A stretch of DNA of 64,000 nt from Entophlyctis helioformis (lineage: Eukaryota; Chytridiomycota; Chytridiomycetes; Chytridiales; Chytriomycetaceae), in assembly GCA_025526915.1 (NCBI GenBank), contig JAHLKH010000070.1, forward strand, positions 1 through 64,000, written 5' to 3'. Shown in pieces: positions 1,574 to 10,797 of this stretch. Made by a program: the position numbers and the translations under genes. Each line of letters begins with the position of its first letter. Within the stretch, counting starts at the first letter, position 1. Below the pieces are notes generated by a model. It had not been told where the DNA came from, made no database searches, and saw nothing but the letters and a program-made list of their open reading frames with translations.

Positions 1574-4500
1574 TCATAAATACTCGTCATCGTCATCTTG
1601 CTCGTCTGAGTGGTCGTTCCATGCTTCGTCCATGTCCACATCATCGCCAGTGACCTCGTCCCAATTGCTGGTGCTTCAGCGTGCACTCTGCCCGCTCATC
1701 CATTGCCGCCAGGTCTCCTGATGCTTGCCACCATGTCAGTTTCACAGAATAGGCTGCAGACATGGACACGGCCACTCGTACCAGATGCCCTTGCATTTCG
1801 GACTTCCTCAAACAGGTCATTGTATGTATGCTGAAATGCTGCAGAATTGCTAATGACGCGGCACACCACTCTGTCGGTAGATGCAGCGGGCGTGAGTGAC
1901 AGATATGCCGTGCATGATCATGTTGACTTACGCGGCAAACAACAGAATGAACTGCTTGCATGACCATTGCTGCGTGTCTGGATGCGCCATCCATTCATCG
2001 AGCAGCTCGCTGCATCGCATCATGGCATACTTGCTGGGCCCATGCCGCAATATCAGCTGTATGTCTTCCCTGCCATACAGTGCCATTCAGCCGTGTCAGT
2101 TTCCAGCCACACACACAACAGCCATCGAAAGGGCAACCTTTGAATGCGCGACTCTTCCTCTGTGAGTGGTCTTCGCTTGCTGTTGATGCCTCGTTTGTTT
2201 GCATTTGGAAACAGGCGACGCTTGGTCCGCTCAAGAGATGAGCCAGCTGGATCAGGCAGCTGACCAATATGCTTTGGTGCAACGCCTGTGAGCATCTTGG
2301 CATTCGTCGTCCTGAGTGCTGTGACAAGCTGCTGTTGTTGATCTTGAGTCAATGAGGCGACTGCCAGATCCAGAGACGGGACATCGAGCCGGCTGTTGAT
2401 TGTCTCGTCATCCACAGACTGGCATGCGTCCTGCCACGTTTGCGAGGTGGTGCGGGCTACATCGGCTGCTCTCTCTGAGACAGCCCAATCATCGTATTAA
2501 TGGTCTCACATGCCAGCTGCTCATGCAAACATCCAAGGCAGATCCATCCATCCTGCTTACCAGATGCGGTTGCATTTCGGACTTCCTCAAACAGTTGACT
2601 GTGTGACTGCTGGAACGTTGCAGAATTGCTAATAACACGACGCACCACTCTGTCGGCAGATGCAGCAGGCGTGAGTGACAGATATGCCGTGCATGACCAT
2701 GTTGACTTACGCGGCAAACAACAGAATGAACTGCTTGCATGACCATTGCTGGCGTGTCTGGATGCGCCATCCATTCATCGAGCAGCTCGCTGCATCGCAT
2801 CATGGCATATTTGCTGGACCCATGTTCCAATATCAGCTGTATCTCTTCCCTGCCATACAGTGACATTTAGCCGTGTCAGTTTCCAGCCACACACACAACA
2901 AGCATTGAAAGAGCAACCTTTGAATGCGCGACTCGTCCTCTGTGAGTGGTCTTCGCTTGCTGTTGATGCCTGGCTTGGATGGATTTGGAAGCAGGTGACG
3001 CCTGATCCGCTCAAGAGATAATCCAGCTGGATCGGGCAGCTGACCAATACTCCTTGGCGCAACGCCTGTGAGCATCTTGGCATTCGTCGTCCTGAGTGCT
3101 GTGACAAGCTGCTGTTGTTGGTCTTGAGTCAACGAGGCGACTGCCAGATCCAGAGACGGGACATCGAGCCGGCTATTGATTGTCTCGTCATCCACAGACT
3201 GGCATGCGTCCTGCCATGCTTGCGAGGTGGTGCGGGCTACATCGGCTGCTCTCTCTGAGACATCCCAATCATCGCATTAATGGTCTCACATTCCAGCTGC
3301 TCATGCAAACATCCAAGGCAGATCCATCCATCCAGCTCACCAGATGTGCTTGCATTTCGGACTTCCTCAATCAGGTGGCTGTATCTCTTCTGGAATTTTG
3401 TAGCATTTACAATGACGCGGCACACCACTCTGTCGGCAGATGCAGCAGGCGTGAGTGACAGATATGCCGTGCATGACCATGTTGACTTACGAGGCGAACA
3501 ACAGAACGACTTGCTTGCATGACCATTGCTGCGTGTCTGGATGTGCCATCCATTCATCGAGCAGCTCGCTGCATCGCATCATGGCATATTTGCTGGGCCC
3601 ATGCCGCAATATCAGCTGTATCTCTTCCCCTGCCATACAGTGCCATTCAGCCGCGTCAGTTTCCAGCCACACACACAACAGCCATCGAAAGGGCAACCTT
3701 TGAATGCACGTCTCGTCCTCTGTGAGTGGTCTTCGCTTGCTGTTGATGCCTGGCTTGGATGGATTTGGAAACAGGCGACGCTTGGTCCGCTCAAGAGATG
3801 ATCCAGCTGGATCGGGCAGCTGACCAATGTTTCTTGGCGCAACGCCTGTGAGCATCTTGGCATTCGTCGTCCTGAGTGTCACAACAAGCTGCTGTTGTTG
3901 GTCTTGAGTCAATGAGGCGACTGCCAGATCCAGAGACGGGACATCGAGCCGGCTATTGATTGTCTCGTCATCCACAGACTGGCATGCGTCCTGCCATGCT
4001 TGCGAGGTGGCGCGGGCTACATCGGCTGCTCTCTCTGAGACATCCCAATCATCGCATTAATGGTCTCACATTCCAGCTGCTCATGCAAACATCCAAGGCA
4101 GATCCATCCATCCAGCTCACCAGATGCACTTGCATTTCGGACTTCCTCAAACAGGTCACTGTATCTCTTCTGAAAAATTGTAGCATTTGCAATGACGCGG
4201 CACACCACTCTGTCGGCAGATGCAGCAGGCGTGAGTGACAGATATGCCATGCATGACCATGTTGACTTACGAGGCGAACAACAGAACGACTTGCTTGCAT
4301 GACCATTGCTGCGTGTCTAGATGTGCCATCCATTCATCGAGCAGCCCGCTGCATCGCATCATGGCATATTTGCTGGACCCATGTTCCAATATCAGCTGTA
4401 TGTCTTCCCTGCCATACAGTGCCATTCAGCCGTGTCAGTTTCCAGCCACACACACAACAAGCATTGAAAGGGCAACCTTTGAATGCACGTCTCGTCCTCT

Positions 4501-7500
4501 GTGAGTGGTCTTCGCTTGCTGTTGATGCCTGGCTTGGATGGATTTGGAAACAGGCGACGCTTGGTCCGCTCAAGAGATGATCCAGCTGGATCGGGCAGCT
4601 GACCAATGTTTCTTGGCGCAACGCCTGTGAGCATCTTGGCATTCGTCGTCCTGAGTGTCACAACAAGCTGCTGTTGTTGGTCTTGAGTCAATGAGGCGAC
4701 TGCCAGATCCAGAGACGGGACATCGAGCCGGCTGTTGATTGTCTCGTCATCCACAGACTGGCATGCGTCCTGCCATGCTTGCGAGGTGGCGCGGGCTACA
4801 TCGGCTGCTCTCTCTGAGACATCCCAATCATCGCATTAATGGTCTCACATTCCAGCTGTTCATGCAAACATCCAAGGCAGATCCATCCATCCAGCTTACC
4901 AGATGCACTTGCTGTTCTGACTTCCTCAAACAGTTGACTGTGTGACTGCTGAAAATTTGTAGCATTTGCAATGACGCGGCACACCACTCTGTCGGCAGAT
5001 GCAGCAGGCGTGAGTGACAGATATGCCATGCATGACCATGTTGACTTACGAGGCGAACAACAGAACGACTTGCTTGCATGACCATTGCTGCGTGTCTAGA
5101 TGTGCCATCCATTCATCGAGCAGCTCGCTGCATCGCATCATGGCATATTTGCTGGACCCATGTTCCAATATCAGCTGTATGTCTTCCCTGCCATACAGTG
5201 CCATTCAGCCGTGTCAGTTTCCAGCCACACACACAACAAGCATTGAAAGGGCAACCTTTGAATGCACGTCTCGTCCTCTGTGAGTGGTCTTCGCTTGCTG
5301 TTGATGCCTGGCTTGGATGGATTTGGAAACAGGCGACGCTTGGTCCGCTCAAGAGATGATCCAGCTGGATCGGGCAGCTGACCAATGTTTCTTGGCGCAA
5401 CGCCTGTGAGCATCTTGGCATTCGTCGTCCTGAGTGTCACAACAAGCTGCTGTTGTTGGTCTTGAGTCAATGAGGCGACTGCCAGATCCAGAGACGGGAC
5501 ATCGAGCCGGCTATTGATTGTCTCGTCATCCACAGACTGGCATGCGTCCTGCCATGTTTGCGAGGTGGCGCGGGTTACATCGGCTGCTCTCTCTGAGACA
5601 TCCCAATCATCGCATTAATGGTCTCACATTCCAGCTGCTCATGCAAACATCCAAGGCAGATCCATCCATCCAGCTCACCAGATGCACTTGCATTTCGGAC
5701 TTCCTCAAACAAGTGGCTGTGTCTCTGCTGAAAATTTGTAGCATTTACAATGACGCGGCACACCACTCTGTCGGCAGATGCAGCAGGCGTGAGTGACAGA
5801 TATGCCATGCATGACCATGTTGACTTACGAGGCGAACAACAGAACGACTTGCTTGCATGACCATTGCTGCGTGTCTAGATGTGCCATCCATTCATCGAGC
5901 AGCTCGCTGCATCGCATCATGGCATATTTGCTGGACCCATGTTCCAATATCAGCTGTATGTCTTCCCTGCCATACAGTGACATTTAGCCGTGTCAGTTTC
6001 CAGCCACACACACAACAGCCATCGAAAGAGCAACCTTTGAATGCGCGACTCTTCCTCTGTGAGTGGTCTTCGCTTGCTGTTGATGCCTGGCTTGGATGGA
6101 TTTGGAAGCAGGCGACGCTTGGTCCGCTCAAGAGATGATCCAGCTGGATCGGGCAGCTGACCAATGCTCCTTGGCATAACGTCTCTGAGCATCCCGGCAT
6201 TCGTCGTCCTGAGTGCCGTGACAAGCTGCTGCTGTTGGTCTTGTGTCAATGAGGCGACTGCCAGATCCAGAGACGGGACATCGAGCCGGCTATTGATTGT
6301 CTCGTCATCCACAGACTGGCATGCGTCCTGCCATGTTTGCGAGGTGGTGCGGGCTACATCGGCTGCTCTCTCTGAGACAGCCCAATCATCGCATTAATGG
6401 TCTCACATGCCAGCTGCTCATGCAAACATCCAAGGCAGATCCATCCATCCAGCTCACCAGATGCACTTGCATTTCGGACTTCCTCAAACAAGTGGCTGTG
6501 TCTCTGCTGAAAATTTGTAGCATTTACAATGACGCGGCACACCACTCTGTCGGCAGATGCAGCAGGCGTGAGTGACAGATATGCCATGCATGACCATGTT
6601 GACTTACGAGGCGAACAACAGAACGACTTGCTTGCATGACCATTGCTGCGTGTCTGGATGCGCCATCCATTCATCGAGCAGCTCGCTGCATCGCATCATG
6701 GCATACTTGCTGGACCCATGTTCCAATATCAGCTGTATGTCTTCCCTGCCATACAGTGCCATTCAGCCGTGTCAGTTTCCAGCCACACACACAACAGCCA
6801 TCGAAAGAGCAACCTTTGAATGCGCGACTCTTCAGCTGTCAGTGGCCGACGTTCCTTTGAGCCTTTCTTGGATGGATTTGGAAGCAGGCGACGCCTGATC
6901 CGCTCAAGAGATGAATCGGCTGGATCGGGCAACTGATCAATACTCTTTAGCATAACCTCTCTGAGCATCCCGGCATTCGATGTCTTGAGTGCCACAACAA
7001 GCTTCTGCTGCTGGTCTTGTGTCAACGAGGCGACTGAGCAGCCAAGCAATGGAGACAGGCCGAGACGATCCAGTGATCTGGCTGTTTTGTCCGGCATTGG
7101 CATACTTTGCAGTTGACGCAAGACATCGTCTGTTGCTGTTGATGATGGCGAGCCTGTGCGTTGTTCGAGTGGCTCGGCCCTACGTCTGCGAGTCTGGCGA
7201 TGCTGATCAGACGATGTAAGCGAAAGGCTGCTGTCTGCATCAGATACGTCAGATGCGACCGATGTGGCCGCTGATGAGCGAGATCGCTTGGCAAGGCGGC
7301 CGGTGTGGATGGCATCTGGTGCGTCTGCATCGACAGCCATGCTGCGCTGTGCCATCCACAGCGGCTGTCCATCATGGCGTGCCTCGTGCTGCTGGACCAT
7401 CGACAACGGTGGCTGTGTTGTGCTGCAAGCGGTCAGCCAGACGGTGCAGGCTGGACAGCAGAGGCAGGCCAGAGCGACGGACACGCAGACTCACTCGGTG

Positions 7501-7922
7501 TCTGCACGAGAGGCAGGCTGCTCAACAGCAACAGCAACAGCGACCGCCCGCGTGGGCCGTCCGTTGGCTGCAGCGGGCTCGCTGGACGCTTGTGCCGGCT
7601 CGTCGCTCGGCTGCCCGTGTACCTCGTATGGGTGGCCGGCCCTGCCGCGAGGTTGCCGCAGCAGCTCCTGTGGTGCATGCAGTGTGAGCCAGCCAGCCAG
7701 CCACGGCAGCCAGCCACGGCAGCCCGCCGCACTCACCGCCACATCCGCCAGTGTCGGCTGGCCGCCGCTGTCTTGTGCGCTCATTCGTGCTGCCGCTTGA
7801 GCGTGTTGCTGCGAGCCAAGCAAACCATCCGCTTGCCATCCTTGACATCCCAGATCGCGGCTGGTCAGCACCATCAGCGACCGGAACTCGGCCATGAACC
7901 CTTCCATCGACTGTGCTACCAT
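1574..7922 (-). CDS. Unrecognised protein with 188-residue repeats made by tandem exon amplification
   Basis: Not a family I recognise. Unique exons are 7922-7737, 7667-7495 and 7422-6814, with phases that match. They encode a start with MVAQSMEGF, a basic/Ser-rich stretch and then the first, diverged repeat core (LTQDQQQKLVVALKTSN). From there a three-exon cassette repeats: B (138 nt, e.g. 6745-6608), C (89 nt, 6546-6458) and A (337 nt, 6371-6035). These sum to 564 nt, or 188 codons, so the frame is kept from unit to unit. Introns are 68, 61 and 86 nt. The introns after B and C have GTAAGT and GTGAGC donors. The A core contains LTQDQQQQLVTALRTTN and LPDPAGSSLER; B contains KYAMMRCSELLDEW; C contains LFEEVRNAS. 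There are six genomic periods. Two B exons, near 3627 and 2751, carry one extra base that breaks the frame. The 3' end is unresolved; an acidic reading frame ends with TGA at 1576-1574. The predicted length is about 1,500 residues if all units are spliced as modelled. Confidence 0.55.
1781..6745. repeat. Tandem array of 779-780 bp units (exon cassettes)
   Basis: The same block recurs with landmarks at 2415, 3195, 3975, 4754, 5533 and 6312 (the reverse-strand codons for MDDETINSRLD). The spacings are 780, 780, 779, 779 and 779. Exons and introns are both conserved. The units near 4754 and 5533 encode identical core proteins, while the copy nearest the gene start (6814-7060) is clearly diverged. 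The two 780-bp periods differ by single-base insertions at a CCCC run (about 3627) and at GG (about 2751). Both strands give long overlapping open frames; only the minus frame is consistent with splicing. Confidence 0.95.
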
Positions 7923-8219: not shown

Positions 8220-10797
8220 ATGGGCAAGGACGTCGCCAAGAAGAGCAGTTCAAAGAGCAAGGGCGGCAAGAGCGCCGCCGGTGCACCGCACGCAAAGAGT
8301 GCCTCGAAGCCGCCAAAGAAGCACGCAGCTGTGCAGCAGGACGATGCCGACGAGCAGGCGGCCTTTGACGAGTCGCTCGAGGCTGGCGACGCTGTCGATG
8401 GCAGCGAGCAGCAGTATGGCGACGACGACGACTACGCAGAAGCCGACGAGGCGGCTGGAGGCGACGAAGCAGCAGAAGACGACGACGACGACGAGCAGCA
8501 GAGTCCGGTCGCCAAGCGGGCCAAGACCGAGGAAGAGGCCGAAAAGAGCCGTGCGTCTCGCGCCGAGCAGCAGCGTCTGCTCAAGGAGCGCAAGCTGCAG
8601 AAGCCGCATGCGTCGCTCATCTCCGAGGCCAAGAGCATTTGGGAGCAGGTGCGCCAGAAGCGCATGACCAAGCCCGAGCGCCGGGTGCTCATGAACCGCA
8701 TGATGGAGCTTGTCGGCGGCCGTGCCAAGGAGGTGTGTGCCCGTCGATGCGTCTTGCTGGCTGGCTATCTGGCGGGTTGTCTAGTTGTGTATATGGCTGG
8801 CTGGCTATATGTCTGCCTGCCTGTCTGCCTGCCTGGCACCTGCGTTGTGCACTCGCGATCGCCGTCCTTGTGGCCCGTGCGCTGACCCTGCTCCCGCCCA
8901 TAAAAAGATCATCTTCAAGCACGATGCCAGTCGCATCGTCCAGTGCTGTGTCAAGTACGGCACGACCGAGCAGCGCGACCAGATCGCCGAAGAGCTCAAG
9001 GGCCAGTACGCCCGCCTCTCGCAGTCGCAGTACGGCCGCTTTATCGTGTCCAAGATCCTGACGTACTGCCCCAAATACCGCAACACGGTCATCTCTGACT
9101 TTTATGGCAAGGTGCGCACGCTTGTGCGCCACAAGGAGGCCTCGCTCGTGCTCGATGAGGCCTATTCGCAGTTTGCCAACGCGTCCCAGCGCTCCGCTCT
9201 CATGGAAGAGTTCTACGGGCCCGAGTACGCCGTCTTCAAGAAGCTCGACGACAAGCGCAGCCTCGACTCGCTGCTCGCTTCCAACCCCGAGCGCAAGCCC
9301 GCCATCTTGCGCCATCTGCGCCAGACGCTCGACTCGGTGCTCCAAAAGGGCTCCTTCAACCTCGGCAAGACGCCGATCCTACACCGTGCTGTCTGGGAGT
9401 ACGTGAGCCACGCCGAGACCAAGGTCGCCGCCGACATGATCGAGCTGCTCAAGGACCACCTTGTGCACATTCTGCACACGCGCGACGGTGCCCGTGTCGC
9501 GCAGTACTGTCTCCTCCATGCGTCCCCCAAGGACCGCAAGCACATTCTCAAGTCGTTCAAGGGATTTGTGCATGCGATTGCCCGCGAGCAGTACGGCCAC
9601 GCGGTGCTCATCACGGCGTTTGAGACGATTGACGACACGGTCATTGTGTCCAAGACGATTGTCAGCGAGCTGCTCACGACTGCGGCGGCGGCGGCGGGCA
9701 CGGGTGTCGGCGGCGGCGGCGACTCGGGCGGCGTTGCGCTGAGCATCTCGGAGATTCTGCGCGACAAGTACGCGTCGCGCGTGGTGCTGTTCTTGCTCAG
9801 CGGCCGCAACAAGCGGTTCCAGCCGGCGTACCTCGTCGAGGAGCTGCAGGCCATGGATGCCGTGCGGCGGTCGACGTCCAAGAAGGACGATTCGCTGCGA
9901 CGCTCTCAGCTGCTCGAGGCTGCGGCCCCTGTGCTCGTGGCTGCGGTTGCTGAGCATGCCAACGAGCTCCTCCGCGACCGTATTGGCGGACAGGTTCTGC
10001 TCGAGACGGTGGCTGTGCTCGGAACGTCTGCGTCTGGTGTTGACGCGATCATGGCGGCTGTTGTCGATGCTGTGGCGGCCAACCTTGATCCTGCCGGTGT
10101 CGTTGATGAGGACGAGGCTATGGATACGGACGCTCCTGCTGGTGCTGCTGCCGCCGCCACGGACGATGATGACGCGAGCGTGTCGTCTGACGATGGCGAC
10201 GACGATGGCGACAACACTGAGCTGGTTGTCAAGAGCGGCAAGGCGTACAACGCCGTCACGGTTCTCAAGGCCGAGCGCGATGCAGCCAAGCAGGCTGCCC
10301 AGGGCCTCGACATGGCGTCGTCGCTCCTCGTCAACCGGTCCGCCACCTTTACCCTCAAGGCGCTTGTGTCGGCCAAGACCCCCGACATGGGTGCCGCTCC
10401 CTGGCGACCGGCCCTGATCTCGTCCCTCATGTCCGTCCTCGCCCCCGTGCTCAGCACCTGGATCGCGTACTGCGCTGCCGACCCTGCGTCGCGCTCCGGC
10501 ACGGCGCTCATCTTTGTTGCCATGATCGAGACCGCGGGCGATGCGCTCGCCCGGCAGATGCGCGAGGCCGTCGTTGCGGGCGGTGTGGACGTGGCGGCTG
10601 TTGCAAAGGACGCGGCTGCGGCGGTTGCCGCGGCGAGAGAGGCAAGAGACGCAAACGAGGCGGCCGGTGCGCCGGCTGCCAAGGGCAAATCCCAGAAACG
10701 TAAGCGCGGCGACAAGGAGTCCAAGGCCGGCAGCGACAAACCGGCGGTCGTGCACAAGTCGGCTGTTGAGACGCTGCTTGGTTTCTTGTCTGCCTGA
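8220..10797 (+). CDS. PUF6: PUF6-type Pumilio protein (nucleolar ribosome-biogenesis factor)
   Basis: Exons are 8220-8732 and 8908-10797 (phase 0 junction), giving 800 residues. The first 100 residues are lysine- and acid-rich low complexity, as usual for nucleolar proteins. From about residue 150 come Puf-like repeats (IIFKHDASRIVQCCVKYGT, SQYGRFIVSKIL, DGARVAQYCLL, EQYGHAVLITAF), then a CPL-type C-terminal half and a lysine-rich tail. Yeast Puf6 and human PUM3 bind RNA and double-stranded nucleic acid and take part in 60S assembly and ASH1 mRNA repression. The length and the KHDAS opening repeat fit this branch rather than cytoplasmic Pumilio. The single 175-nt intron contains CCTG repeats. 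The gene converges on the RING gene, with 99 bp between stop codons. Confidence 0.88.

Follow-up and report, generated by a model that had tools for sequence, protein, structure and literature searches.

What kind of gene is encoded by a tandem array of 779-bp units in the first kilobases of contig C70 of the chytrid Entophlyctis helioformis, how did the array come to its present form, and what might its protein do? The window, by which we mean the whole 64,000-nucleotide stretch of DNA analyzed (C70:1-64000), belongs to an assembly of 29.6 Mb in 482 contigs; according to PMC11797018, E. helioformis JEL805 is one of the comparison genomes in that paper. Anchor motifs, an offset scan and a repeat finder gave a minus-strand array of seven copies, the last one partial, with a period of 779 or 780 bp. 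The anchor motifs were spaced 779 or 780 bp apart at 1.9-6.7 kb of C70, and the offset scan showed 55% identity at a 779-bp shift across 1.4-8.2 kb. The array did not appear among the periods listed by Tandem Repeats Finder, the longest of which was 500. A chance repeat is ruled out by the 91.9-98.2% identity of the six full units to one another across 779 bp.

Each unit comprises three exons, E1 (138 nt), E2 (89 nt) and E3 (337 nt), which add up to 564 nt or 188 codons, and three minus-strand introns, A (68 nt), B (61 nt) and C (86 nt), all of them GT-AG. The period, the exon lengths with their sum and the compatibility of the phases had been proposed in a preliminary description of the locus and were borne out by the anchors, the offset scan, the repeat finder and the GT-AG introns. 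In C70, introns A and B are in phase 2 and intron C in phase 1, so that the cassette starts and ends at phase-2 introns. Such matching phases do not explain the amplification, because unequal exchange between homologous points preserves the frame at any phase. We refer to the part of E3 with LTQDQ..RIQR as module X, to E1 plus E2 as module Y, and to X plus Y as the unit (approximately 188 residues). C70 has six complete cassettes plus a seventh that consists of E1 and E2, and the proposed gene has the following parts:

Exon 1, 7737 to 7784, minus strand: proposed start codon 7784-7782 (MSAQDSGGQPTLADVA), with ATG in 12 of 12 aligned rows; intron 7736-7668 (GTGAGT..CAG).
Exon 2, 7495 to 7667, minus strand: a coiled coil in short paralogs, altered in C70.
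Exon 3, 6814 to 7422, minus strand: Ser/basic linker (KRSR, RRRR) and the first X module.
Cassette 1, 6035 to 6745, minus strand: E1 6745-6608, E2 6546-6458, E3 6371-6035.
Cassette 2, 5256 to 5966, minus strand: E1 5966-5829, E2 5767-5679, E3 5592-5256.
Cassette 3, 4477 to 5187, minus strand: E1 5187-5050, E2 4988-4900, E3 4813-4477.
Cassette 4, 3698 to 4408, minus strand: E1 4408-4271, E2 4209-4121, E3 4034-3698.
Cassette 5, 2918 to 3629, minus strand: E1 3629-3491 (139 nt, out of frame), E2 3429-3341, E3 3254-2918.
Cassette 6, 2138 to 2849, minus strand: E1 2849-2711 (139 nt, out of frame), E2 2649-2561, E3 2474-2138.
Cassette 7 (partial), 1782 to 2069, minus strand: E1 2069-1932, E2 1870-1782.
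Last exon, 1574 to 1717, minus strand: follows intron 1781-1718; encodes an acidic tail in relatives, whereas its frame in C70 does not match that of cassette 7.

For intron A, an alternative donor, GTGTGTGTGG, which would give a 47-nt intron, also keeps the frame in C70. It was rejected because several paralog units hit a stop a few codons past RIQR and because the GT of the 68-nt site is the same in all 48 units compared. The accepted donor (GTTGCY) is a weak one.

The array is not the only one of its kind. A six-frame search of the assembly, with scores for 150 of its 162 candidates, returned at least 160 exon matches, and the sequence of 24 loci, then of six more, was taken for comparison. 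Beside C70, twelve further close loci carry 1 to 9 units each. Counted by X modules, C70 and C168 hold seven, C116 nine, C136 six plus at least two at its other end (C136s), C24 six, C32 two and two, C255, C4 and C50 two each, and C1 one, while C94 has an X fragment at the contig end. Divergent relatives at 32-48% identity (C10, C16, C164, C310, C311, C184, C279, C283 and C37) mostly have two or three units; C26 has one X-Y place and C81 two, approximately 2.3 kb apart. The near-identical sets C164/C310/C311, C279/C411 and C283/C477 may be allelic. We considered a mobile element with fixed ends and rejected it: the homology blocks are about gene-sized, but their ends vary and some loci share longer flanks, which makes dispersed gene duplication the simpler reading. 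The two-unit copies of C32, at 147 kb and 178 kb (C32a, C32b), lie in opposite orientation with units approximately 95% alike, and their likeness beyond the gene hints at a recent segmental inverted duplication. C94:94000-97794, a contig end, aligns to the start of C168 at 97% identity across numerous gaps and terminates inside the array, as if at an assembly break.

Whether these arrays encode protein was judged from the 48 aligned units. When segment lengths were measured as deviations from the mode (the last two segments being counted in 36 units), exons deviated in multiples of three in 22 of 31 cases and introns in 2 of 27. By segment, the multiples of three amounted to 21/23 in X, 1/1 in the rest of E3, 0/4 in E1 and 0/3 in E2; the seven non-triplet deviations of E1 and E2 are frame shifts or contig-end positions. 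The predicted frame is interrupted by a stop in 1 (X), 2 (E1) and 1 (E2) of the 48 units, and 10 of the other 15 frame/exon combinations have a stop in at least 37. Approximate dN/dS from parsimony counts was 0.52 overall (X 0.52, E1 0.32, E2 0.73), with 45 of 148 codons under constraint at the nominal level. In one of the three units of the divergent locus C10, a single open frame lacking introns B and C runs from Y into X, which independently supports the removal of these introns elsewhere. Together with the gene models, the unit alignment and the exon-length deviations support the idea, put forward in the preliminary description, of a gene grown by amplification of a 188-codon cassette, and place it on the minus strand.

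Gene modeling covered 11 of the loci (all of the close ones except C94 and C136s), and complete models were obtained for two of them. C168 gave 24 exons with 23 introns, all GT-AG, and an uninterrupted protein of 1,526 aa; C24 gave 21 exons with 20 GT-AG introns and an uninterrupted 1,346 aa. C255 and C1 are open for 575 and 414 aa but include frame-shifted stretches, C70 and C4 reach a stop at aa 1053 and 518, and C116, C136, C32a, C32b and C50 stop at 35-224, some of these early stops possibly reflecting automatically placed exon boundaries. The expectation that the cassette multiplies without breaking the frame therefore fails in C70, where E1 of units 5 and 6 is one base too long (139 nt) and the last exon does not continue the frame of unit 7; C168 has none of these defects. 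In C70 they may have arisen by mutation or through misassembly of a long repeat.

These interruptions bear on one alternative explanation, namely a drifting and largely dispensable family in which unequal exchange multiplies cassettes, many copies are pseudogenes, and the diversity of E2 marks a local hot spot of recombination or mutation. It would account for the early stops in C70, C116, C136, C32a, C32b and C50 and for the loss of the intron C AG acceptor in units 3, 5 and 8 of C116, the longest array with nine units, and in unit 1 of C4 (C116 may be decaying or spliced differently). It agrees poorly with two complete multi-unit reading frames (C168 and C24), a dN/dS near 0.5 with nearly a third of codons under nominal constraint, and exon indels that come mostly in threes, and some of the early stops stem from single-base length changes, which may be assembly errors, or from automatic boundaries. 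We regard this explanation as rather unlikely. What is well supported by the sequence comparisons is a coding family in which a composite exon cassette is present in 1-9 copies and evolves largely in concert, found so far in one species.

The ends of the gene were revised in one respect. The preliminary description had set the start codon at 7922; the ATG at 7784 is likelier, being present in every aligned row against 5 of 12 for that at 7922, and the stretch between the two can be aligned in approximately half of the rows, with a frame that differs between C70 and C168. The gene end given there, 1574, fits the acidic C-terminus of intact relatives. An acidic C-terminus was found in C168, C116, C24, C4 and C1, and a D/E-rich YIxLxF ending in C116 and C32 (by eye also in C255), with similar endings in C24 and in the divergent C311.

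The clearest view of how the array changes comes from the comparison with C168. C168:1-9900 is collinear with C70:196-10106, a Puf6-like neighbor included, and the two C70 stretches tested against C168 (9.0-10.7 and 43.0-44.2 kb) match at 99%; we therefore take C168 as the other haplotype, a segmental duplication being possible. The left and right flanks of the two are 97.9% and 98.7% identical, whereas the array reaches 93.5% and the N-terminal region 88.2%. Units of C70 and C168 are mostly not paired by position: the nearest relative of C70_2 is C168_1 and that of C70_6 is C168_4, and C70_3, 4 and 5 form a private group in the unit tree and in the identity matrices. For each of the final units, C70_7 and C168_7, the closest match beyond its home array is the other one. 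The six full units of C168 are 83-93% identical in protein. Both near-allelic copies hold seven units, and hence no length polymorphism was seen. This array divergence, together with the unit trees and identity matrices, justifies the description of the protein as fast-evolving.

Outside this pair, in the unit alignment (from which C94 was left out), units cluster by locus in C116, C136, C24, C255 and C4. In C32a and C32b, units match their positional counterparts in the other copy, and no grouping is seen among the units of C50 or of C136s. With these exceptions, the clustering by locus and the non-positional pairing are what concerted evolution through unequal crossing-over and gene conversion would produce, processes that would add, remove and homogenize units. 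A single genome holds genes in which this kind of unit occurs 1, 2, 3, 6, 7 or 9 times, along with two near-allelic arrays that are already reshuffled, so that one can measure directly, in an early-diverging fungus, how a composite exon repeat arises and turns over.

Two features of the surroundings were noted in passing. The Puf6-like gene beside the array (window 8220-10797, plus strand) has CPL and PUF domains in Pfam and, by eye, a single intron at approximately 8736-8905. Between C70:9000-43000 and C168:8792-57714 the offset changes from approximately -0.2 kb to +14.7 kb, and C168 has approximately 15 kb extra in between.

Variation between close units peaks in the 89-nt exon in some of the arrays. 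Among close unit pairs (less than 4% apart outside the tested segment; 6-16 non-independent pairs per segment), E2 was 4.51-fold more divergent inside than outside, compared with 2.52 for X, approximately 1.4-1.6 for introns A and C and for E1, 1.18 for the start of E3 and 0.43 for intron B. The twelve last units were left out of these distance tables and of the table of closest pairs. Between C70_3 and C70_4, 10 of 14 differences fall in E2. Of the 22 closest pairs, 12, most of them from C70, C168 and C136, had an excess of differences in this exon at p<0.05; the other 10, among them the C116 and C32 pairs, had no such excess, and two pairs had zero E2 differences.

The cause of this peak is less clear-cut. 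Among the six C70 units, E2 had a pS of 0.196 and a pN of 0.111; as synonymous difference is raised along with nonsynonymous difference, a recombination or mutation hot spot fits as well as selection does. An excess of nonsynonymous change was seen at nominal p<0.05 in 8 of 148 codons, about the number expected by chance, and a helical (100-degree) periodicity of E2 variability was not significant (p 0.15 and 0.18). Both the raised synonymous difference and the lack of an excess of positively selected sites favor the largely dispensable family described above. Exchange of E2 alone, as a special claim, was rejected since mosaicism occurs all through the unit: with the truncated or shifted E2 rows C136s_2, C1_1, C136_4 and C24_3 left out, the AU test rejected the rest-of-unit tree for six of six windows tried, and the nearest-neighbor test gave 30/44 for E2 and 21-34/44 elsewhere.

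The protein may have a helical, oligomeric build. Gene exon 2 of the shorter paralogs has a heptad pattern with 80% hydrophobic a/d positions (shuffle p 0.0004), and this segment is shorter and altered in C70 and C168. An AlphaFold2 model (mean pLDDT 75.2) was all-helical, a predicted trait in common with alpha-solenoids (HEAT, armadillo, TPR); a further model, that of P0006, was of poor quality, with a mean pLDDT of 47. A coiled-coil base carrying helical repeats is probable, and a diversifying binding surface is possible. The sequences show a short N-terminal exon, then a segment of coiled-coil type that is intact in shorter paralogs, a Ser/basic linker, 1-9 units and an acidic tail, each unit of approximately 188 residues being spread over three exons in the large members.

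The same features would suit a structural or nuclear scaffold with no recognition role, a factor for multivalent assembly or for transcription or chromatin in which repeat number tunes length or valency only. In the C168 protein, KRSR occurs at residue 117 and the tail of 45 residues carries a net charge of -17, and acidic tails recur in other paralogs and in the divergent C311. A scaffold role alone does not explain the divergence peak in E2, and we consider this reading somewhat unlikely. Fungal adhesins commonly have tandem repeats of variable number, and a cell-surface adhesin of amplified repeats had been among the initial suggestions. It found no support: the N-terminus of the intact C168 protein is hydrophilic, with no hydrophobic stretch (best 19-residue mean -0.15), the C-terminus is acidic, and the most hydrophobic windows (approximately 2.0) sit in the repeats, so that the hydropathy profile shows neither the signal peptide nor the surface anchor of a fungal adhesin. 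An adhesin is highly improbable.

Database searches agreed with the earlier proposals that the unit matches no known family and is lineage-specific, the latter as far as searched: Pfam, NCBIfam, PDB and Foldseek gave no consistent match for the family, and protein matches were confined to E. helioformis. These protein searches, one of which was of low sensitivity and missed the members P0001-P0003, had queries from the family other than C26 and C81 and returned no relatives outside the species. Matches to two Pfam families were treated as spurious because most members lack them: Mtr2 (above its cut-off in one unit pair, E 1.5e-6, and in one of seven members) and SpoOE-like (two of seven members, best E 1.7e-5, also precomputed for P0001). 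A viral origin was also rejected, as viral contigs held no relative and Foldseek returned nothing among viral models at E<=0.001. A literature search of titles and abstract openings of open-access papers returned no earlier description of the family. The unit domain has no known relatives in the searches done.

Two known systems come closest. Fungal NLR sensor repeats (Podospora HNWD/het-d and het-e; ANK and TPR types) are, according to PMC12222747 and PMC4986451, more than 80% alike and evolve in concert, with exchange within and between paralogs, hypervariable positions and non-functional alleles. The homogenization typical of such repeats was found here as well, in the amino acid identity of the C168 units and in the clustering by locus of five arrays. 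Unlike fungal NLRs, the C70 family has no NACHT/NB-ARC, HET, WD40, ANK or TPR in its Pfam lists, and its unit is 188 aa in three exons compared with 42 aa in the fungal sensor repeats. No NACHT/NB-ARC match was present in Pfam for the N-terminal part, the unit, four paralog proteins and seven aligned members (best 25 of 32 families), and no WD40, ANK or TPR match for the unit at E up to 10 or for the seven aligned members at E up to 1 (again the best 25 of 32 families). The other system, the LRR exon arrays of Tetrahymena, is described in PMC6564038 as tandem units between phase-2 introns, with ectopic recombination proposed; C70 shares the phase-2-flanked tandem exon units and a copy number that varies among lineage-specific paralogs. 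In contrast to these ciliate arrays, the chytrid fungus has three unequal exons with mixed internal phases and no LRR match, and its exons of 138/89/337 nt are not the 90-bp LRR exons. Fungal sensor repeats and Tetrahymena phase-2 exon arrays are the closest parallels, and by the features tested the family is a member of neither.

We favor, with a probability of roughly one half, a coiled-coil, helical-repeat binding scaffold in concerted evolution with one diversifying helix region. In such a protein, selection would keep the 89-nt exon diverse, and, as the least certain part, the array would form a helical scaffold that oligomerizes via the coiled coil and binds partners through the E2 helix region. 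By analogy with the fungal sensor repeats of high internal conservation, and equally uncertain, repeat number and E2 variants might set the binding specificity. If E2 does so, this would point to a recognition system in chytrids, a group in which the survey PMC4986451 found no NLR. A full non-NLR recognition system, with oligomerizing receptors built of helical repeats, cassettes that undergo copying, loss and exchange across loci and haplotypes, and a hypervariable short exon that sets specificity, as a convergent counterpart of dikaryan NLR sensors, is a speculative extension that we hold to be doubtful.

The best protein matches of the array were deposited hypothetical proteins of E. helioformis. 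By eye, the deposited model P0004 (265 aa) agrees with the last exon of C70 together with units 6 and 7 of its array, and no deposited model was seen for the rest of the C70 array; the same splice junctions, again by eye, are used in the deposited models P0001, P0002 and P0004. Just downstream of the divergent two-unit paralog on C184, near 5400-7150 on the plus strand, a long open frame with ankyrin-like repeats was noticed by eye.
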